Source: a virus
Reading direction: 5' to 3' (one strand)
IMG/VR virus record: IMGVR_UViG_3300017781_000041
Location: 1 to 38,398 of that record
Length of the DNA: 38,398 bases
In this document: positions 2,662 to 36,762 of the stretch, one piece after another
How positions within the stretch are numbered: position 1 is the first letter of the stretch
Layout of the letters: every line of letters begins with the position of its first letter
Position numbers and translations under genes: made by a program
The notes under the pieces: generated by a model
Database searches by the model: none
What the model was told of the DNA's origin: nothing
Seen by the model: the letters and a program-made list of their open reading frames with translations, nothing else

Positions 2662-3036
2662 ATGTCAAAAAAATATAAAATTCTAAGACCAAAACCATGT
2701 ATTGTAGATGAAGATACTAGGAAACTAGAACTACAACCTGTTGATAAAATAATTGATGCAGATACTGATTTAATGAAAGCCAATATGGAAAGATTTGAAA
2801 GCATGGGTTGGGCTATGGAAATAAAAATGGACTCTGTAGAAGAAACTGTAGAAATTGAAGCAGAAGTAAAACCAAAAAGGGCAAGAAATAAAAAAGGTCA
2901 ATTAAAAGCTGATGACCCATCTACTCCTGATGTTAATGAAGCATGGGAAGGTGGAGAAGCACCAAAGAAAACAGCTAAAAAAACCACAGCTAAGAAAACA
3001 ACAAAAAAGAAAACTACTACTAAGAAAAAGTCTTAA
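2662..3036 (+). CDS. Small head-region protein with Lys/Thr-rich C-terminal tail
   Basis: A 124-aa protein of unknown function. The N-terminal half is mildly acidic. Residues about 75-95 contain ARNKKGQLKADDPSTPDVNE, a motif I recall at the C-terminal part of small head-region proteins in many marine phages. The last 25 residues are almost only Lys, Thr and Ala (KKTAKKTTAKKTTKKK), like a histone H1 tail. Such a tail could bind packaged DNA or a negatively charged head surface, which is inference. AAGGAA precedes the ATG. It lies between the capsid genes and the connectors, so a minor head role is plausible. Confidence 0.55.
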   Translation: MSKKYKILRPKPCIVDEDTRKLELQPVDKIIDADTDLMKANMERFESMGWAMEIKMDSVEETVEIEAEVKPKRARNKKGQLKADDPSTPDVNEAWEGGEAPKKTAKKTTAKKTTKKKTTTKKKS

Positions 3037-3083
3037 TATTTCTTTTTATTGTATGTAAAGAATTAATGGCTTAGAATAGATGA

Positions 3084-3284
3084 ATGGCAGTCAAGATACC
3101 AAGCGATACTATAAGTAAGCTAGAAGCACATGAACGTGAATGTGCTATTAGATACGAGAATATAGATAGAAGGTTAGAAAGTGGTTCAAAGAGATTTGAT
3201 AGACTTGAAAATCTTATTTATGGACTTTATGGCTTAATTATCGCTTCAATGTTTGGGCTAATAATAGAAAGGATATTTTTTTAG
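3084..3284 (+). CDS. Small coiled-coil protein with C-terminal membrane helix
   Basis: A 66-aa protein: residues 8-44 form a charged helix (KLEAHERECAIRYENIDRRL, then RFDRLENLIYG) and residues about 45-62 (GLYGLIIASMFGLIIERIF) a single hydrophobic span. This layout resembles XhlA-type hemolysin or holin-accessory proteins, but it sits inside the head module far from the lysis genes. No Shine-Dalgarno sequence is visible. The protein composition looks genuine. Function unknown. Confidence 0.5.
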   Translation: MAVKIPSDTISKLEAHERECAIRYENIDRRLESGSKRFDRLENLIYGLYGLIIASMFGLIIERIFF

Positions 3285-3293
3285 GAGAATAAT

Positions 3294-3473
3294 ATGTCAG
3301 AAGACTTAAACTACGAATCACTATATAACACAGCACAGCAAGAACTAGCTAATGCACAACATACTATTAGGGTATTAGTACAAAAGCTACAAGAAGCACA
3401 AGGTGATGATACTGTAGTAGGCGAACAACCAATAGTAGAAGAAGCAAAGGCTGATAAGAAAAAAGCTAATTAG
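3294..3473 (+). CDS. Small acidic helical protein of unknown function
   Basis: A 59-aa reading frame starting MSEDLNYESLYNTAQQELA and ending ADKKKAN. It has an excellent ribosome site (TTAGGAGAATAAT before the ATG), and its stop region TAGGAGTGGTAA supplies the ribosome site of the next gene, so it sits as a proper operon member. The predicted structure is one amphipathic coiled-coil helix with a charged tail. It fills the gap between 3284 and 3483. No family recognised. Confidence 0.65.
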   Translation: MSEDLNYESLYNTAQQELANAQHTIRVLVQKLQEAQGDDTVVGEQPIVEEAKADKKKAN

Positions 3474-3482
3474 GAGTGGTAA

Positions 3483-4139
3483 ATGGCAGGTCTAGTTTTA
3501 CATACAGCACCTGCATCAGAACCTATAACCCTTGCAGAAGCAAAGTCATATTTAAGAGTAGATAGTTCAGGTGATGATGCTTTAATAACATCATTGATCT
3601 CAACAGCAAGAAAGCTATGTGAAGAACACACGCAACGTGCTTTCATGATTCAAACATATGAACTGTTTCTAGATGCATTGGAAGATGTAGAAGATAGTCT
3701 ATGGGAAGGTATGCGTACTGCACCATATATTAACTATTACAAAAACTATATAGAGTTACCTATGCCACCTGTTGTATCTATTAGTCATATAAAGACTTAT
3801 GACGATAGTGACAATGCAACAACCTTTGCTAGTGCTAATTACTATGTAGACAATGCAAGACAACCTGCAAGGGTAGTTTTACGAACAGGGGAAACCTTTC
3901 CAACAGCATTACGAGTAGCAAACGCCATAGAAGTTAAATATGTTACAGGTTATTCATCAGCTAGTGCTGTACCTGAACCAATCAAATTCGCGATTTATCA
4001 AGTTCTTACATATTTGTACGAACACAGAGGTGATATGTATGAAGGTAAAACTTCACTACCTGCTACTGCAACTAAGCTTCTTGCTCCGTATGTAGTTTAC
4101 AGTGGAATGGGTAGTTCAAAACTCATGTCATTAGGATAA
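3483..4139 (+). CDS. Head-tail connector, gp6/phiE125 gp8-like
   Basis: Adaptor protein expected to form the ring under the portal. The start is typical of this family: TAPASEPITLAEAKSYLRV, then DDALITSLISTARKLCEEHT, a helical bundle, and a middle beta segment (IELPMPPVVSISHIKTYDD). The C-terminal helices read VPEPIKFAIYQVLTYLYEHR. Length (218 aa) fits the family. GGAG at 3473-3476 precedes the ATG; the gene's last base overlaps the first base of the next gene. Position between capsid and tail completion genes agrees with the role. Confidence 0.85.
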   Translation: MAGLVLHTAPASEPITLAEAKSYLRVDSSGDDALITSLISTARKLCEEHTQRAFMIQTYELFLDALEDVEDSLWEGMRTAPYINYYKNYIELPMPPVVSISHIKTYDDSDNATTFASANYYVDNARQPARVVLRTGETFPTALRVANAIEVKYVTGYSSASAVPEPIKFAIYQVLTYLYEHRGDMYEGKTSLPATATKLLAPYVVYSGMGSSKLMSLG

Positions 4140-25622: not shown

Positions 25623-26145
25623 AAGAAAAAGAGGTAGACCTAGTAATGCAGAACTTGCTAGGAGAAAAGAAGAAGCTGAAAAGGATAAAATAATAAAATT
25701 AGTATCTATCGTAGGTATTCTTTTAATTTTAGGTATCTTTATTCAAAATGTTACTGCTGATCAAATAGTACATAAGTTTAAATCACCATCTTTTAGTGGA
25801 ATAAATACATCTAGCCATTATCTAACTATAGAAAATCAAGAATTTAATCGTAAGCTTACAATCAAAGAAGAAATAAAAGCCTTACAAGATGAAATAGAAA
25901 GAGAAAAAGAAAACTCTACACTTGCTAGGTTCATGCGAAACTTAGAAAGCAGAGTCTATGCTGAACTTTCAAGACAACTAGTTAGTAACTTATTTGGCGA
26001 AACGCCTTCTGATTCAGGAATTATTGAACTAGAAGGAAATATAATTGAATATACGAGTGATGGCGTAACATTAACCCTAAAAATAACAGAAGCAGATGGC
26101 ACAGTCACAGAAATTACAATTCCTATCGGTACTTTTACTTTCTAG
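25603..26145 (+). CDS. csgF: CsgF-like curli secretion accessory protein
   Basis: A 180-aa homologue of CsgF, the periplasmic/extracellular protein that plugs the CsgG pore and helps nucleate curli. A hydrophobic signal segment (IIKLVSIVGILLILGIFI, about residues 30-47) is followed by a VTA/DQ cleavage site. The mature start DQIVHKFKSPSFSGIN corresponds to the E. coli segment with FRNPNFGGN that inserts into the pore. The C-terminal part (GNIIEYTSDGVTLTLKITEA) matches the CsgF beta domain. Unusual: a 29-residue basic extension before the signal segment with KRKRGRPSNAELARRK. ATG 25603 is preferred to TTG 25585. It overlaps csgG by 50 bases in another frame. Confidence 0.8.
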   Translation: MTKEKIKRKRGRPSNAELARRKEEAEKDKIIKLVSIVGILLILGIFIQNVTADQIVHKFKSPSFSGINTSSHYLTIENQEFNRKLTIKEEIKALQDEIEREKENSTLARFMRNLESRVYAELSRQLVSNLFGETPSDSGIIELEGNIIEYTSDGVTLTLKITEADGTVTEITIPIGTFTF

Positions 26146-26962
26146 TTGTTCAATTTTTGACCAGTATGAAGATACATACGATCAAAGAGCAAATAACGAC
26201 ATAGTAAGGATAGATCAACTTCATTCTAAAGAATTAGCTAATGTACAAAAACCTCTAGTACAACCTATAGTAGCTGTATATCCAACAGCATTTACAGATC
26301 AAACAGGACAAAGAAAAAGTAACAGTGAATTTGCTTTATTTTCTACTGCTGTAACACAAGCACCCTACACATTATTAATTAGAGCATTAAAACATTCTAG
26401 TAATGGTGAATTTTTTAGAGTAGTAGAAAGGGTTGGTTTAGATAACTTAACAAAAGAAAGACAGCTAATTAGATCAGCAAGAGAACAATTTGCAAAAGAT
26501 GGTGAAGAAAAGAACGTACCGCCACTGCTCTTTGCAGGTGTATTGCTAGAAGGTGCTGTAATAAGCTATGATAGTAACTTGTCAACTGGTGGTGTTGGTG
26601 CTAGGTATCTAGGAATAGGTAAAAGCATTCAATATAGAGAAGACAATATTACAGTTAGTCTTCGTATGGTATCAGTTGCAACAGGTGAGATACTTATAGA
26701 AGTATTAAGCCAAAAAACCATATTTAGTTATGGCAAATCAGAAGATGTTTTTAGATTCATAGAGATGGGTACTGAACTTGTAGAAATTGAATTAGGTAAT
26801 TCAAGAAACGAGTCAACAACGATTGCACTGATGAAAGCTATAGAAGGTGCAGTCTTAGAGCTAATAAATATCGGATACGATAGGAGTTTTTGGAAACATG
26901 AAGAAACTGAAATTACTAAGCCTGATTGCGATGATGATTGCATCACCAACATACGCGGCTGA
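26096..26962 (+). CDS. csgG: CsgG-like outer-membrane curli export lipoprotein
   Basis: A 288-aa homologue of CsgG, the nonameric outer-membrane pore of type VIII secretion. The signal peptide ends in lipobox LSSC with Cys18 as lipidation site. Strong family strings are FSTAVTQAPYTLLIRALKHS, VVERVGLDNLTKERQLIRSA, STGGVGARYLGIGKSIQYRE, RMVSVATGEILIEVLSQKTI and VFRFIEMGTELVEIE; the spacing matches E. coli CsgG throughout. In the constriction loop, E. coli has Tyr51, Asn55 and Phe56 (recalled numbering); here the Phe is kept before STAV, but the Asn position is Leu and the Tyr is absent in my alignment. It starts inside csgF and ends inside the curlin-like gene, so expression is coupled. Confidence 0.92.
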   Translation: MAQSQKLQFLSVLLLSSCSIFDQYEDTYDQRANNDIVRIDQLHSKELANVQKPLVQPIVAVYPTAFTDQTGQRKSNSEFALFSTAVTQAPYTLLIRALKHSSNGEFFRVVERVGLDNLTKERQLIRSAREQFAKDGEEKNVPPLLFAGVLLEGAVISYDSNLSTGGVGARYLGIGKSIQYREDNITVSLRMVSVATGEILIEVLSQKTIFSYGKSEDVFRFIEMGTELVEIELGNSRNESTTIALMKAIEGAVLELINIGYDRSFWKHEETEITKPDCDDDCITNIRG

Positions 26963-27629
26963 TAACGAAATATTTGTAGATCAATCAGGAACAGGTGCAA
27001 ATATAGATTTAGAACAACTAGGTATATCTAATATTATAGGTGGTCTTAACACAGAAGCAGGAAGTCTCACAGCTTTTGATTTAGATGGAAATTCTATGAC
27101 TTTAGATATCAATATGATTGGTGCAACAAATAAATTTTTAGGTGATATATACGCTGATAACTTTACAGGTTTGTATAATTTCACTGGTTCAACTAATTCT
27201 TTTACTATCCAAGTAGACCCAACTAATAGTTTTGGTGCAGATGGTTCTGATCATAATATTGCAGTAACTGGTGCTTCTAATACATTTACATTGAATCAAG
27301 GAACTACTGCACTATCCGCAAGTCTTAATTTAGATTGGATTATTCAAGGTTCTAACAATACCATTACATCAAATATAAATATTGACGGTGCTACTAATTA
27401 TATGGATATAGATGGTTCTGATAATACAGTTACATATACAGGTACTGGTGTTAATGCTTCAGCAGGTGGATATTTCTATCTAGACCATACAGGTGGTCAA
27501 AGAACATTTAATATTCAACAATTAAGTACACAGGACAATGACTGGCTCAAAATCATATCAGTGGGTGGCAATTCTTCTTCTACTGTTTGTGTTATCCAAA
27601 ACGATCAAGGCACAAGCACAGGCTGTTGA
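26898..27629 (+). CDS. Secreted curlin-like repeat protein, probable CsgG substrate
   Basis: A 243-aa exported protein. Residues 1-20 are a clean signal peptide (MKKLKLLSLIAMMIASPTYA) with an AYA-type site. The mature start has VDQSGTGAN and EQLGISN: the Gln residues at 29 and 40 are 11 apart and the second is an exact QxGxxN curlin motif, the half-repeat spacing of CsgA/CsgB. The rest contains repeated G(A/S)(T/S/D/N)N units (GATNKF, GSTNSF, GASNTF, GSNNTI, GATNYM, GSDNTV) at about 20-residue steps, suggesting a beta-solenoid. It ends with two Cys in VCVIQNDQGTSTGC. Predicted extracellular or surface-attached amyloid-like protein exported through CsgG. Its last 92 bases overlap the FecR-like gene. 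Confidence 0.68.
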   Translation: MKKLKLLSLIAMMIASPTYAADNEIFVDQSGTGANIDLEQLGISNIIGGLNTEAGSLTAFDLDGNSMTLDINMIGATNKFLGDIYADNFTGLYNFTGSTNSFTIQVDPTNSFGADGSDHNIAVTGASNTFTLNQGTTALSASLNLDWIIQGSNNTITSNINIDGATNYMDIDGSDNTVTYTGTGVNASAGGYFYLDHTGGQRTFNIQQLSTQDNDWLKIISVGGNSSSTVCVIQNDQGTSTGC

Positions 27630-28656
27630 TATTGGAGATATATCTGAGCTAAACGGCTCAGCACAAATAGTTAGAGATAAGCCCTATAATGCAAACCTAA
27701 AATTTGCTATACAAAGCAATGATGAAGCTATTACTTCTAATGGAAGAATGGCAATTAAATTTCTTGATGAATCTACAGTGAAACTTACTGAACACTCACA
27801 GCTATTAATAGATGAATATATCTATGACCCCGACCCATCTAAATCTAAAATGGCTCTTACCTTTGGATTAGGTACAGCAAGATTTATCACAGGCAATCTT
27901 AATAGAATAGATAAACAGAATATAAAACTTAAAACTCCTACTGCAAATATAGCAATCAGAGGTACAGATTTTACAGCTACTGTAGATGAACTAGGCAGGT
28001 CATTAATAATACTGCTACCTGATGCTCTGGGCTTGTCTAGTGGTGAGATAGAAGTAGTTACTGCTATGGGTACAGTTTTACTAAATAAACCATTTCAAGC
28101 CACTACAGTTAATGTCTTTGAATCTAAACCTAGTAAACCAGTTATCTTAGATTTAACTCTAGATATTATTGATAATATGTTAATAGTCACACCACCAAAA
28201 AAAGAAATAAGTCTTACAGAAGAAATTGCACAAAATTCACAACAAAATATATTAGATTTTAACGATTTGGATATTGACTATCTTGATGAAGATTTTTTTG
28301 GTAAAGATGAATTAGAGTTTACAGAACTAGATATTAACTATCTTGATACTAACTATCTTGAAGATTTATTAAATGTCTTAGATGCACTTGCAGTAAATAA
28401 ACAAGAAGATGTTTTAGCTGTAGTTGGTGGTATTGACGTTCAAGGCACAAAAATTGGTCAAGATACAGAAACACAGATGACCACTCTAATAGCAGGTAAT
28501 GTTATAAGTCTTAGAAGGAATGTTAATAATTCTGCAAGATTAGATCTAAATGGAGATGATACTTATACTCTTATCATAATTCAAGATGGCGTTTCTAATG
28601 TTATTAAGATAAATGGTGGTGGTGACTCTGTAATTAGTATTACTCAAAGCGACTAA
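27538..28656 (+). CDS. FecR-domain protein with C-terminal curlin-like segment
   Basis: A 372-aa exported protein. A signal peptide (residues 8-29, WVAILLLLFVLSKTIKAQAQ) leads into a FecR domain (about 35-160): ISELNGSAQIVRDK, MAIKFLDESTVKLTEHSQLL, LGTARFITGNLNR and the hallmark TPTANIAIRGTDF. Residues 240-275 hold two acidic units (LDIDYLDEDF and LDINYLDTNYLED). The C-terminus (about 340-372) reads TYTLIIIQDGVSNVIKING, with exact curlin motif QDGVSN at 349-354. FecR-domain genes often neighbour CHASE2 cyclases, as here; the stop overlaps the cyclase ATG by one base. It may scaffold or report on the curlin-like fibre in the periplasm or outside (inference). Confidence 0.75.
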   Translation: MTGSKSYQWVAILLLLFVLSKTIKAQAQAVDIGDISELNGSAQIVRDKPYNANLKFAIQSNDEAITSNGRMAIKFLDESTVKLTEHSQLLIDEYIYDPDPSKSKMALTFGLGTARFITGNLNRIDKQNIKLKTPTANIAIRGTDFTATVDELGRSLIILLPDALGLSSGEIEVVTAMGTVLLNKPFQATTVNVFESKPSKPVILDLTLDIIDNMLIVTPPKKEISLTEEIAQNSQQNILDFNDLDIDYLDEDFFGKDELEFTELDINYLDTNYLEDLLNVLDALAVNKQEDVLAVVGGIDVQGTKIGQDTETQMTTLIAGNVISLRRNVNNSARLDLNGDDTYTLIIIQDGVSNVIKINGGGDSVISITQSD

Positions 28657-30434
28657 TGAAAAAACTTATAATACTTATACTTGTACTACTATCACTCCCA
28701 CTTATATTTCAAAGTACGCCTACAGATATAATAAAACTTAGAACCTTTGATACTCTTGTTAAACAATACAACCCATCAGGTAATTTTGTAATTCTCAATA
28801 TTACAGAAGAAGATGTAGAAAATGAGGGTGGTTATCCTTTACCTAGACAAAGATTAGCTGAGATACAAGTTGATCTTATTAATAAAGGTGCTATTGGTGT
28901 TGGTTGGGTTATATCTTTTCCACAGGCAGACAGACTAGGTGGTGATAAAGCCTTTGCAGAAGCATTAAGTTATGCACCATCTGTTATTGCTATGTTTGAA
29001 GATAATAAAAATAATTATCCTAAATCTACTGGAACGGTTGTCAAAGGCAATGATGTTAGTGGTATAGTAAGTATGGGAGTCAAGGAAAACCTGAACACTC
29101 TAAAAGAAAATACACTGCAGGGTCTAGCCATTGCTCCCACTGAAGTTGATCAACTCGTTCGCAGAATACCCCTTTTAGTAAGCACTCCTAAAAACGAATG
29201 GATTCCTGCATTTGGTACACAAATATATAAAGCTTTATTTGGTGTAAAGACTTACATTATAAAAACTAATGATAATGGTATAGAGGAAATATCAATTAGA
29301 GGAATACCACCAATAAAAACAGACAGTTTAGGGCGTAAATGGATAAGTTGGGTAGATACAGAACAAACAGACCTTAAAGAAATGAACGTAGAAGGTAAGT
29401 TTGTATTTGTAGGTGTTACAGCTAATGGTGTTATGCCACAGATAGCCACTCCTGTGGGTTTGCTAGAACCACATAAGATACAAACAGCTTTAGCAGAATC
29501 AATACTTATAGAAGATAGCCCATATATACCTGATTGGGCTTTAGCTTTAGAAATAGTTATATTTTTCGTTTCTGTAAGCCTTATATGGCTTGTATTAAAC
29601 GCTTTTGGTGTTACTTGGGGGATTATATTAGCTATATTAATAATGTTGTCCACAGCTTATACAGGATATGGACTTATCCACAGGGGAATATTGATTGATG
29701 TCACTTGGTCTTTGATATCACAGTTTATAACAGGCTCTATAGCTTTATATTTAAGATTTAGAGAACAATGGAAGCTTAGAGAACAGATAAAAGGTCAATT
29801 TGAACATTATCTTGACCCAAGACAGGTCAAAAAATTACAAGATAATCCTACATTGTTAAAACTTGGAGGTGAAAGGCGTTATGCAACTTTTTTATTTACA
29901 GATGTTCGTGGTTTTACAGCTTTATCAGAATCATTAGAACCTGAACAAGTAACGTACATTATGAATAGAGCATTAACTGCACAACAGGAAGCAGTGCAAA
30001 AACATGGTGGTATGGTTGATAAATATATAGGTGATGCAATGATGGCTATCTTTAATGCACCTATTGATCTAGAAGAACATGAAACAAAGGCATTAGAATG
30101 TGCTATAGATATACAAAAAAATATGCATGAACTTAATTATGTATTGGTAGATGAAGGCATAACACCAGTTACTATAGGTATAGGAATAAATACAGGATAT
30201 GCAGTTATAGGCAATATGGGTTCTAAAAATAGATTTGATTATACTGCTATAGGTGATGCTGTTAATGTTGCGGCAAGACTTGAATCAGGAACAAAACAAG
30301 CAGGTGTAGATTTGCTAATTGGTCAAACTACAAAAAATGCTATAAAATTAGAATTAACATCTTTAGAACCAATTCAGGCTAAAGGTAAAAGCGAAAAATT
30401 ACAGGTGTATACATGGGGTTCAAATTATCGTTAG
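28656..30434 (+). CDS. CHASE2-domain membrane adenylate cyclase (class IIIb)
   Basis: A 592-aa membrane cyclase. Residues 3-19 are a membrane/signal helix; about 25-290 form a periplasmic CHASE2 sensor domain (NPSGNFVILNITEEDVENEG, PRQRLAEI); about 296-366 contain three membrane helices; 405-592 is a class III catalytic domain. All six canonical residues are visible: metal-binding Asp416 (FTDVRGFT) and Asp460 (VDKYIGDAMMAIF), adenine-selecting Lys456 and Thr530 (FDYTAIGDAVNVAARLES), and transition-state Asn537 and Arg541. The Lys/Thr pair points to ATP, so cAMP as product. Its ATG overlaps the FecR stop by one base. A complete, apparently functional adenylate cyclase in a phage late operon is unusual. 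Confidence 0.9.
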   Translation: MKKLIILILVLLSLPLIFQSTPTDIIKLRTFDTLVKQYNPSGNFVILNITEEDVENEGGYPLPRQRLAEIQVDLINKGAIGVGWVISFPQADRLGGDKAFAEALSYAPSVIAMFEDNKNNYPKSTGTVVKGNDVSGIVSMGVKENLNTLKENTLQGLAIAPTEVDQLVRRIPLLVSTPKNEWIPAFGTQIYKALFGVKTYIIKTNDNGIEEISIRGIPPIKTDSLGRKWISWVDTEQTDLKEMNVEGKFVFVGVTANGVMPQIATPVGLLEPHKIQTALAESILIEDSPYIPDWALALEIVIFFVSVSLIWLVLNAFGVTWGIILAILIMLSTAYTGYGLIHRGILIDVTWSLISQFITGSIALYLRFREQWKLREQIKGQFEHYLDPRQVKKLQDNPTLLKLGGERRYATFLFTDVRGFTALSESLEPEQVTYIMNRALTAQQEAVQKHGGMVDKYIGDAMMAIFNAPIDLEEHETKALECAIDIQKNMHELNYVLVDEGITPVTIGIGINTGYAVIGNMGSKNRFDYTAIGDAVNVAARLESGTKQAGVDLLIGQTTKNAIKLELTSLEPIQAKGKSEKLQVYTWGSNYR

Positions 30435-34221: not shown

Positions 34222-34566
34222 TCAAAAAGGCAGATCGTCTTCCTGTTCTTCGTCTATCCAGTTCTGATTTCCTTCATATAATTGCTTTGCATATTCCTGA
34301 CCTGCTGTTTTCCTAAATCCATATTTTTCAAAAAATTTAAATTCATTTCCGTACTTAGTATGTAGCTGTGCATGATGAAAAACACACAAAGGTATTACTT
34401 GATCATCACCTGCTTTTAAAGACCAACCACGCTTTCCATCACTAGGCTTTAATAAATGATGGGCTTGTATAGAACCATTGCAGGACAAGAAGCCTGACCT
34501 ACTTATAAAGCAAGGCAGGGTTCTTACCCACATAAGATGTTTCTGATTTACAAGTCTTTTAGACAT
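34222..34566 (-). CDS. HNH-type nuclease (DUF968-like)
   Basis: A 114-aa protein with a beta-beta-alpha-metal core: SIQAHHLLKPSDGKRGWSLK, DDQVIPLCVFHHAQLHTKYG. The AHH and FHHAQLH His residues are the likely catalytic and metal ligands, and two Cys (CFISRSGFLSC) may bind zinc. DUF968-like proteins in phages are recombination or Holliday-junction-type nucleases, consistent with the ERF and exonuclease genes upstream; a homing-type nick enzyme is the alternative. The start overlaps the CmoA-like stop (TAATG). Confidence 0.7.
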   Translation of the reverse strand: MSKRLVNQKHLMWVRTLPCFISRSGFLSCNGSIQAHHLLKPSDGKRGWSLKAGDDQVIPLCVFHHAQLHTKYGNEFKFFEKYGFRKTAGQEYAKQLYEGNQNWIDEEQEDDLPF

Positions 34567-35231
34567 TAATCTTTATATAACCAATGATTCTTAATAAAAT
34601 AACCCATAAAATTATATGATTGCCAAATTTTTGTGGTATCACCAATGCTATTTAGTTCTTTATCTAATTCTTTTTGTGTCCTGCAAAACATTGATACTGA
34701 TAATTGATTGTCTTTATCTAAAATTTCTTTATCACTAAAGTTTTTTCTTTTTTCTTGAATATGTAATCTATGTATTAGTGTTTGCAGTCTTGTATCTTCT
34801 AAATATACTTTTTCAGATAATAATATGATTGTACCTTTATCAATATATTTTTTTAAAAGACTTATAACCCTGTTTCGTTTTGCTTGACCTAAGAATTGCA
34901 ACATAAACATACATACAATAGTAGAAACATTTTTATCAAGGTATTCTATAAGAGCATCTTCTATATCTAAGTTTTCATATACAAATCCATCTCTTCTGTC
35001 TTTAAAATTTACAATATCAAAACCAACATAATTTGTGTTTTCAATTTTATCCAAATTATGCAGGTATCTTCCTGTTGAACAGCCCAAATCTAGAACATAA
35101 CTTTCAGGTTGTGCAAATTCTTTTGTGATACAACTGAAAATTGTATCTAATGTTTCAAAGTTAGGTATAGACAATTTAATATGATTGTCAAAATCTTCTA
35201 CATTACTAAAATCAAATTTATTATATTTCAT
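34566..35231 (-). CDS. CmoA-like SAM enzyme (candidate carboxy-SAM synthase or relative)
   Basis: A 221-aa Rossmann-fold SAM enzyme. SAM motif I is VLDLGCSTGR (46-55). The whole layout follows CmoA: FDFSNVEDFDNHIKLSIPNF near the start, CMFMLQFLGQAKRNRV (LQFL 111-114), ILLSEKVYLED (LSEK), NFSDKEILDKDNQL and the end IWQSYNFMG (CmoA: LWFQCFNFG). CmoA converts SAM and prephenate to carboxy-SAM, used for tRNA uridine-34. Here the gene overlaps a DNA cytosine methyltransferase by 11 bases and no CmoB is nearby. Caution: by my recalled alignment, Asp164 sits where E. coli CmoA has the carboxylate-binding Arg199, so the product may differ. A plain methyltransferase remains possible. Confidence 0.72.
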   Translation of the reverse strand: MKYNKFDFSNVEDFDNHIKLSIPNFETLDTIFSCITKEFAQPESYVLDLGCSTGRYLHNLDKIENTNYVGFDIVNFKDRRDGFVYENLDIEDALIEYLDKNVSTIVCMFMLQFLGQAKRNRVISLLKKYIDKGTIILLSEKVYLEDTRLQTLIHRLHIQEKRKNFSDKEILDKDNQLSVSMFCRTQKELDKELNSIGDTTKIWQSYNFMGYFIKNHWLYKD

Positions 35232-36297
35232 ATTTATTATGCACCTCTTCTATTCTTGTTCCCAACCATTCCATAACATTTATTGACATTGACCTTCCAA
35301 CAGCTTCATATCTTTTAGATGTTGGACAATCTTCTTTTTCTTTTCCCTTATATGGTATTTGTGTATAGTTATCAGGAAATCCTTGAAGTCTTTCTGCTTC
35401 AATAGGAGTTACTTGTCTTAACTCTGTTTTTACATCTTTTAATTCTACATATACACATGGTTGTCTATTGCCACCAGTCATTGCTGTAAGCGTTGGGCTA
35501 ATTTCTTCTTTTTGTATTCTTGCTGTTTTATCAGGACTACTAGTCTCAAAAACAGTAACAGAATATCTATCTGAAGCTGTTAAAGTAAAACTAGAACCAT
35601 CATTTTTATATGGTTTACCATTACTTTTAGTATGACTATCTCTAATTATGTATGGTTCTTCGTATTCTCTATAAGTGCTTTCTTTAGATTCTTTGGCAAT
35701 GGTTTTTTTCTTTCTTCTGATCGGTCTAGCATCTTTTGACACCTCTTCTTTGTCAAATAATACTTCTGCAGGATATCGCCAGTCTCTAATATGTCCGACA
35801 ACGAAGACACGCCTTCTTCTTTGAGGAATTGCTCTTGGATAGCGTTGTGTTCTGACATACTGAGTGTCCAAAACCCTGTAGGCGAACCCATACCCGAGTT
35901 GAGCCAATGCTCCGAGGAAGGTAGCAAAGTCTTCTCCTTTGTTAGATGACAAGACTCCAAAGACATTTTCCCAAATAACCCATGTGGGACGGACTCTTTC
36001 AATGAGTTTAATAAATTCAAGTGCGAGGTTTCCTCTGTCTTCATCAAGACCTTTCCTAAGTCCTGCAATACTAAAGGTTGCACATGGAGTGCCGCCCACA
36101 AGGACATCTGCGTGACATCCGATTTTTTCTTTTGTGATTTTTGTGAAATCCCCATAATTTTTTACCTCAGGATAATGATATTTTAACACCTCTGACCTAA
36201 ATTCTTCTATTTCAGCAAATCCTATAGCTTCCCATCCTAATGGATGCCAAGCTACAGAACAGGCTTCAATTCCACTACATATAGAGAGATATTTCAT
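35221..36297 (-). CDS. Cytosine-C5 DNA methyltransferase with altered motif X (Asn to Arg)
   Basis: A 358-aa C5-cytosine DNA methyltransferase. Motif I is LSICSGIEACSVAW; motif IV GGTPCATFSIAG with nucleophile Cys72; motif VI WENVFGV (Glu110); motif VIII QRRRRVFVVG (159-167); target recognition region about 200-290; motif IX RQVTPIEAERLQGFPDN; motif X AVGRSMSINVMEWLG. Motif X normally reads GNS; here codon AGG gives GRS (Arg335). This Asn sits by the SAM carboxylate/methyl donor pocket, and a basic residue there is the kind of change reported to let such enzymes accept carboxy-SAM. The start follows the SSB-like stop directly, without a ribosome site, so translation is coupled. The CmoA-like gene follows with overlap. 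Confidence 0.93.
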   Translation of the reverse strand: MKYLSICSGIEACSVAWHPLGWEAIGFAEIEEFRSEVLKYHYPEVKNYGDFTKITKEKIGCHADVLVGGTPCATFSIAGLRKGLDEDRGNLALEFIKLIERVRPTWVIWENVFGVLSSNKGEDFATFLGALAQLGYGFAYRVLDTQYVRTQRYPRAIPQRRRRVFVVGHIRDWRYPAEVLFDKEEVSKDARPIRRKKKTIAKESKESTYREYEEPYIIRDSHTKSNGKPYKNDGSSFTLTASDRYSVTVFETSSPDKTARIQKEEISPTLTAMTGGNRQPCVYVELKDVKTELRQVTPIEAERLQGFPDNYTQIPYKGKEKEDCPTSKRYEAVGRSMSINVMEWLGTRIEEVHNKYEI

Positions 36298-36762
36298 TTA
36301 GAAAGGAACTTGATCATCATCAAAGTCTTGGCTTGGTGGAAATATTTCTTCATCAGATGTTTGCTCTTTACTTCTAGTAGAATCTACAAGTCCAACGCTA
36401 AGATACTTAGTGCCTTTTTCCTCATTTGTCTGCAACCATCCACCAAATTTTTGACTTGATGTCTGACCACTTCCAAGATCAACTGTAACAGGACCACCAA
36501 TATCAGGTGGATTACCATTAGTATTAAAGTTTTCATCTTTCAAATATAACAACCCAACAGATTGAACAAGCTCATATTTAGATTTCTCATTTCCATACTT
36601 GTCCTTCATTACAGTTTTTAAAATACTGTAGTATTTGTCTTGACCTCTATCATTAGGGTCTTCAGGGTTTTCTTTGTGGTGCATAGACCCTTTCCAAACT
36701 ACCTTACAGTTATTTTCTTTCCACATAGTGCCTTTACGGTCTTTTTTTACATATTCACCCAT
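36298..36762 (-). CDS. Single-strand DNA-binding-like protein with SSB-type acidic tip
   Basis: A 154-aa protein. The body (WKENNCKVVWKGSMHHKENP, KYYSILKTVMKDKYGNEKSK, KYLSVGLVDSTR) is beta-rich and compatible with an OB fold but has no strong SSB signature. The C-terminus is SQDFDDDQVPF, very close to the DFDDDIPF tip with which bacterial SSB recruits partner proteins. AGGAG precedes the start. With ERF and nuclease genes upstream, a role in recombination or replication on ssDNA is likely. Confidence 0.65.
   Translation of the reverse strand: MGEYVKKDRKGTMWKENNCKVVWKGSMHHKENPEDPNDRGQDKYYSILKTVMKDKYGNEKSKYELVQSVGLLYLKDENFNTNGNPPDIGGPVTVDLGSGQTSSQKFGGWLQTNEEKGTKYLSVGLVDSTRSKEQTSDEEIFPPSQDFDDDQVPF

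Follow-up and report, generated by a model that had tools for sequence, protein, structure and literature searches.

DNA carboxymethylation has been described in cyanophage S-B43, in which CmoA and CmoX make 5-carboxymethylcytosine (Yang et al., Nat Commun, 7 December 2025; PMC12783734). The S-B43 CmoA produces carboxy-SAM, and CmoX carboxymethylates cytosine in GC motifs. Arg350 of SpCmoX, located at the position of Asn304 in M.HhaI, touches the carboxyl group of carboxy-SAM; wild-type CmoX uses carboxy-SAM as its sole donor, leaving SAM unused, and the R350N variant takes neither (PMC12783734). The 5-carboxymethylcytosine mark blocks HhaI, CmoY then ligates glycine, and only the glycyl form is present in S-B43 phage DNA (PMC12783734). 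The published set comprises 5,615 CmoX candidates, every one of them with both SPPC and the Arg, SPPC having been a search criterion, and a ParB-domain partner is common in this set (PMC12783734). The same paper refers to an engineered M.MpeI, N374K, that was redirected to carboxy-SAM (PMC12783734). In addition, two conserved residues of M.HhaI, Q82 and N304, have been shortened (Q82A/N304A) for the use of bulky cofactors (PMC10666283).

The window considered here is the whole of a marine phage record of 38,398 nucleotides (IMG/VR IMGVR_UViG_3300017781_000041). It contains, on the minus strand, a C5-cytosine methyltransferase homologue and a CmoA-like gene, which the first-pass annotation had paired as neighbors overlapping by 11 bases; both reading frames were found where it had placed them. 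That annotation had also proposed that the two are a natural pair giving 5-carboxymethylcytosine, and had left aside whether such pairs were already described. They are: CmoA–CmoX has an Arg at the same position (PMC12783734). The proposal itself is supported by the linkage to cmoA, by coupled residue changes, and by the proven S-B43 analogue, and we put at roughly 86% the probability, judged from sequence comparison, that the pair is a unit for DNA carboxymethylation making 5-carboxymethylcytosine. The features of the locus are as follows.

35221 to 36297, minus strand: homologue of C5-cytosine DNA methyltransferases (358 aa) and proposed cytosine carboxymethyltransferase (CmoX-like, TPCA/GRS lineage); Pfam DNA_methylase E 1.7e-48, cmoA-linked Arg-type clade, structure model
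35293 to 35295, minus strand: codon AGG of Arg335, which takes the place of the motif X Asn (M.HhaI N304, SpCmoX R350), from alignment; role of SpCmoX R350 from PMC12783734
36079 to 36084, minus strand: codons of the catalytic Cys72 and of Ala73 (Ala where ordinary relatives have Gln, M.HhaI Q82), from alignment; Q82/N304 engineering from PMC10666283
34566 to 35231, minus strand: CmoA-like predicted carboxy-SAM synthase, 221 aa, with the 11-base overlap with the methyltransferase gene; TIGR00740 E 1e-18, fold model, similarity to SpCmoA
34222 to 34566, minus strand: small gene for an HNH/DUF968 nuclease, whose start and the stop codon of cmoA have one base in common (TAATG); context, with no part in the mechanism
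36298 to 36762, minus strand: 154-aa protein directly upstream of the methyltransferase, no family assigned (ORF, family search); context

The HNH/DUF968 gene after cmoA was seen in the window clade only. No near DNA match to the window was found among phage records, and a scan of bacterial genomes returned only contig-end pieces in two MAGs (Rickettsiales and Pseudomonadota) and one distant clostridial relative. Elsewhere in the window, a gene run at 26096–30434 on the plus strand encodes CsgG (curli transport), FecR, and CHASE2 together with adenylate/guanylate cyclase domains, the cyclase being 31% identical to one of Pelagibacter phage HTVC008M. A host assignment was rejected, as the capsid and cyclase genes of the window point in different directions.

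By its Pfam match, the methyltransferase is clearly a C5 enzyme, with its catalytic Cys72, motif VI (ENV, at 110), and motif VIII (QRRRR, at 159) intact, and the Arg, which aligns locally with the motif X Asn of M.HhaI, is residue 335; Cys72, the intact motifs VI and VIII, and the motif X Arg with its AGG codon had been reported in the first-pass annotation. Thus, the window enzyme has two features of CmoX, namely a C5-methyltransferase framework with catalytic Cys and motifs in place and an Arg at the position of R350. A further change, absent from the earlier annotation, lies next to the catalytic Cys, where Ala stands instead of Gln. Throughout the Arg-type family, the residue at this position is other than Gln (30/30; Ala in 28 and Val in 2), whereas all 70 Asn-type relatives have Gln and none has Ala or Val; in Arg-bearing SPPC enzymes, it is Ser or Ala. 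The two changes together, from Asn to Arg in motif X and from Gln to Ala or Val beside the catalytic Cys, point to an altered donor. Like M.MpeI N374K, the window enzyme is a C5-methyltransferase with a basic residue at this motif X position; the M.MpeI variant, however, is a laboratory single mutant with Lys and is CG-specific, whereas the window enzyme has a natural Arg combined with the change from Gln to Ala. The structure model, of moderate confidence (pLDDT 66), matches M.HaeIII, M.HhaI, and CmoX (8yf3); CmoX ranked no higher than HhaI and HaeIII, as the tree described below predicts, and the model is no evidence for the donor. In one relative (L006:5001-6073), a methyltransferase gene 99% identical to that of the window is split by a one-base deletion (CCC to CC), which is either real or an assembly error.

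Relatives were collected from viral contigs by similarity to the methyltransferase and to CmoA. In addition, family-blind sampling was performed by scanning two matched motif X DNA patterns, with the Arg versus the Asn codon as their sole difference. The co-occurrence search that the first-pass annotation had called for gave the following outcome: among the matches listed in viral contigs, a CmoA homologue was present in the locus in 35 of 40 Arg-type loci versus none of 81 Asn-type methyltransferases (0/42 among the listed Asn-type matches flanked on each side by more than 1.5 kb). The Fisher p value of 2e-25 is uncorrected for relatedness, contig counts not being phylogenetically independent. 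In the reverse direction, relatives of the window-type CmoA adjoin an Arg-type methyltransferase wherever the contig is long enough, with the exception of the NGM lineage discussed below.

The five Arg-type loci without cmoA could each be characterized, so that the wide occurrence of such enzymes without a CmoA-like neighbor, named in the first-pass annotation as evidence against its proposal, was not what was found. In one locus (L121), the contig stops 187 bases past the match. In two (L112 and L123, on the contigs of L010 and L056), both ends of cmoA remain after a thyX-like gene, and these remnants are, as read from the sequences, the mark of a recent internal deletion, with loss of the donor-making gene. 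The remaining two (L129 and L137, on the contigs of L013 and L012) have a CmoY-like ligase in place of cmoA. In the two deletion contigs (L010:6100-6800 and L056:1-830), the adjoining Arg-type methyltransferase gene is still open. An own cmoA is thus not strictly required, given the four contigs of the Arg-type family that lack an intact copy. SpCmoX could use the host CmoA in E. coli (PMC12783734), and phages with an Arg-type enzyme and without cmoA could, by analogy, do the same.

These linkage data bear on the reading in which the window enzyme makes ordinary 5-methylcytosine and tolerates Arg in the place of Asn, the neighboring CmoA being unrelated to it and serving tRNA modification. In bacteria, CmoA is a tRNA-modification enzyme, and the PHROGs label of the CmoA-like family is indeed tRNA methyltransferase. 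However, neither the window record nor 15 relatives gave a family match to CmoB, and the window record has no tRNA gene—as the first-pass annotation had observed for the neighborhood—and Arg and a cmoA neighbor almost always occur together, accompanied by the change from Gln to Ala. Furthermore, wild-type CmoX makes no use of SAM, and its R350N variant accepts SAM no more than carboxy-SAM (PMC12783734). We consider this reading very improbable.

The CmoA-like protein scores 67.9 bits against the NCBIfam CmoA model, below the curated cut-off of 193.3 bits. Its best PDB sequence matches are the CmoAs of E. coli and Haemophilus influenzae, and it is similar to the proven SpCmoA (E 8e-18). The CmoA fold is present: in the model (pLDDT 88), the first six PDB matches are CmoA/YecO structures, with 4gek, 4iwn, and 1im8 among the best. 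The window protein retains Asp62, Gly64, Ser66, Glu164, and Lys198 (E. coli CmoA numbering). The position of Arg199, the carboxyl-binding residue that forms a salt bridge in E. coli CmoA (PMC3663124), is occupied by Asp174 in the window protein and by Glu in SpCmoA. The SAM pocket has also diverged, with Asn132 replaced by Met and Tyr39 by Phe, the position of Asn132 being hydrophobic in both the window protein and SpCmoA. Arg199 was rejected as a marker of CmoA function, since the proven phage enzyme SpCmoA has Glu there. Compared with the E. coli CmoA–CmoB system for tRNA wobble modification, the window pair shares CmoA homology and fold and the carboxy-SAM donor; it differs in that the proposed acceptor is DNA cytosine, with a C5-methyltransferase in the place of CmoB, and in the replacement of Arg199.

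The replacement of Arg199 by Asp and the altered SAM pocket would fit a CmoA-like protein that makes another SAM derivative, or one that simply methylates DNA or the carboxymethyl group; the mark would then be something other than 5-carboxymethylcytosine. SpCmoA, however, is a highly active, proven carboxy-SAM synthase (PMC12783734) that also lacks Arg199 and Asn132, and the loss of Arg199 is therefore no argument against carboxy-SAM synthesis in phage forms. Moreover, the closest PDB folds are those of CmoA, and relatives of the window enzyme carry CmoY-like ligases, which imply a carboxyl group because such a ligase only makes sense acting on one. Either alternative is accordingly judged improbable.

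For carboxymethylation, the preferred reading, the following sequence of events can be proposed. The CmoA-like protein would convert SAM and host prephenate to carboxy-SAM, which the C5-methyltransferase homologue would hold via Arg335, with Ala73 giving extra room. Cys72 would then attack C6 of the target cytosine, and the carboxymethyl group would be moved to C5, yielding 5-carboxymethylcytosine. By comparison with the block of HhaI in the proven system, the mark would probably shield phage DNA from host restriction.

The window locus and the S-B43 CmoX–CmoA(–CmoY) system share the Arg in place of the motif X Asn, an adjoining phage cmoA, and the lack of CmoB, and some relatives of the window enzyme carry a CmoY-like ligase. 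The transferases themselves are nonetheless distant: the window enzyme is about 25% identical to SpCmoX over part of its length (BLAST), and its catalytic loop, GGTPCATF, contains TPCA rather than SPPC, with TPCA or TPCV throughout the window clade. In a methyltransferase tree from which the motif X columns had been removed, the window clade of Arg-type enzymes (17 rows, support 100/99) nests among GNSM phage methyltransferases, whose Dcm-like type has GNS in motif X, and a 100/100 split separates it from the SPPC group, placing it outside the SpCmoX clade. Forcing all Arg-type enzymes together was 153 log-likelihood units worse (AU p 9.6e-6). From the tree placement and this rejection of a single origin, the Arg at the motif X site would thus have arisen at least twice, provided that the AU test is free of a long-branch artefact. 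The closest named relatives of the window enzyme, at 44% identity, are Dcm-like phage C5-methyltransferases with a GNSM or GNSW motif X, as in phages CRP-821 and Pan4; they differ from it in having the motif X Asn and Gln after the catalytic Cys, with no cmoA neighbor annotated or found in such relatives. The window enzyme, probably derived from Dcm-like phage methyltransferases of this kind, appears to be a second, convergent transferase lineage, independent of the SPPC-type CmoX. The published search, as described, required SPPC, which leaves this clade outside it.

A ParB-domain partner was found in neither the window nor 15 related viral records, by a search that also returned none in the records of S-B43 and Streptomyces phage TurkishDelight; the latter is annotated with ParB-like genes, so that this negative carries little weight. 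In TurkishDelight (L268:1878-3149), an SPPC-type methyltransferase with Arg in motif X adjoins an amidotransferase-type gene. In Methylophilales phage Melnitz-3 (L266:3986-5203), an SPPC-type methyltransferase has Leu in motif X, with a RimK-like ATP-grasp gene nearby.

A CmoY-like ligase occurs in 11 loci of the window enzyme family. Most of these ligases are 46–53% identical to SpCmoY over nearly the full length, far above the identity between the transferases, and where present they sit beside the methyltransferase–cmoA pair. CmoY is part of the S-B43 system and was not found in the window record. No match to the Asn_synthase family was obtained in the window record, which is a fragment, or in the records of the closest long relatives (L006 and L039, the latter with a methyltransferase 93% identical to that of the window), and a tblastn search for a CmoY-like ligase was negative in the loci of the window clade. 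Two loci of similar context, L046 and L055, differ by the presence of the ligase, and thus provide a natural on/off comparison for hypermodification.

In view of the missing ligase, the end product in the window may be plain 5-carboxymethylcytosine, with a likelihood somewhat better than even. It is also conceivable that 5-carboxymethylcytosine is only an intermediate, to which a ligase encoded outside the record or by the host would attach glycine or a different amine, in the manner of CmoY in S-B43. The exclusive presence of the glycyl form in S-B43 phage DNA (PMC12783734), the 11 ligase-bearing loci in the family of the window enzyme, and the apparent incompleteness of the record—its last ORF is truncated where the record stops, and no terminase was found among the proteins scanned—all favor such a step. 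However, the ligase searches were negative as described, the ligase adjoins the pair where it is found, and the comparison of L046 with L055 indicates that its absence is tolerated. We therefore regard a glycylated or otherwise amidated product as unlikely, although to be taken seriously.

Both genes are under purifying selection (dN/dS 0.06–0.3 versus close relatives), and the pair recurs across dozens of contigs, amid differing flanking genes and in many unrelated neighborhoods. This joint conservation and recurrence place the pairing far beyond chance. In one locus (L033), the partner of a window-type Arg methyltransferase is a CmoA from a different lineage, with 25% identity to the window CmoA; judged from the sequences, this is an exchange of partners with the pairing kept. 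The CmoA tree places the window-type proteins among those of the NGM lineage.

Further methyltransferases linked to cmoA have other forms of motif X. In staphylococcal phages, the C5-methyltransferase that accompanies cmoA has GGVIN as its motif X (L003:6488-7495, L269:3492-4499, and L428–L431); among viral-contig relatives, cmoA was present in 4/4 at 62% identity or above and in 0/13 more distant ones. In phage vB-SscS-F1, which is of the GGVIN type, a CmoY-like ligase lies between cmoA and the methyltransferase. In large phages, with contigs up to 318 kb, the motif X of the C5-methyltransferase is NGMTV or NGMSV, not GNS, and cmoA follows directly (methyltransferase near position 3000–4000, then cmoA, in L332–L334, L336, L339, L340, and L348–L352). 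In this NGM lineage, cmoA was found in 5/5, and 75 more distant relatives are without it; its methyltransferases are 24–29% identical to that of the window. Neither the GGVIN nor the NGM enzymes have the Arg, so that they would act differently if they are users of carboxy-SAM.

DNA carboxymethylation as such is of a kind already described (PMC12783734); what is new is a convergent lineage outside the published filter. In each lineage, the odd motif X tracks the cmoA neighbor, and relatives with ordinary GN are without cmoA. This pattern suggests a broader reading, for and against which we see the chances as balanced: DNA modification would have recruited carboxy-SAM on at least four separate occasions (SPPC/Arg, TPCA/Arg, GGVIN, and shifted NGM), with cmoA as a hub gene that swaps transferases, the Arg as one of several solutions, and the window ending at plain 5-carboxymethylcytosine.

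The findings suggest that a rare DNA chemistry evolved convergently at the very active-site residues that chemists have engineered by hand. They extend the transferase family beyond the published filter, probably to other sequence specificities, and this would be of use in introducing carboxyl handles into DNA. In addition, the natural pairs of Asn/Gln versus Arg/Ala enzymes provide material on what switches a methyltransferase to carboxy-SAM.
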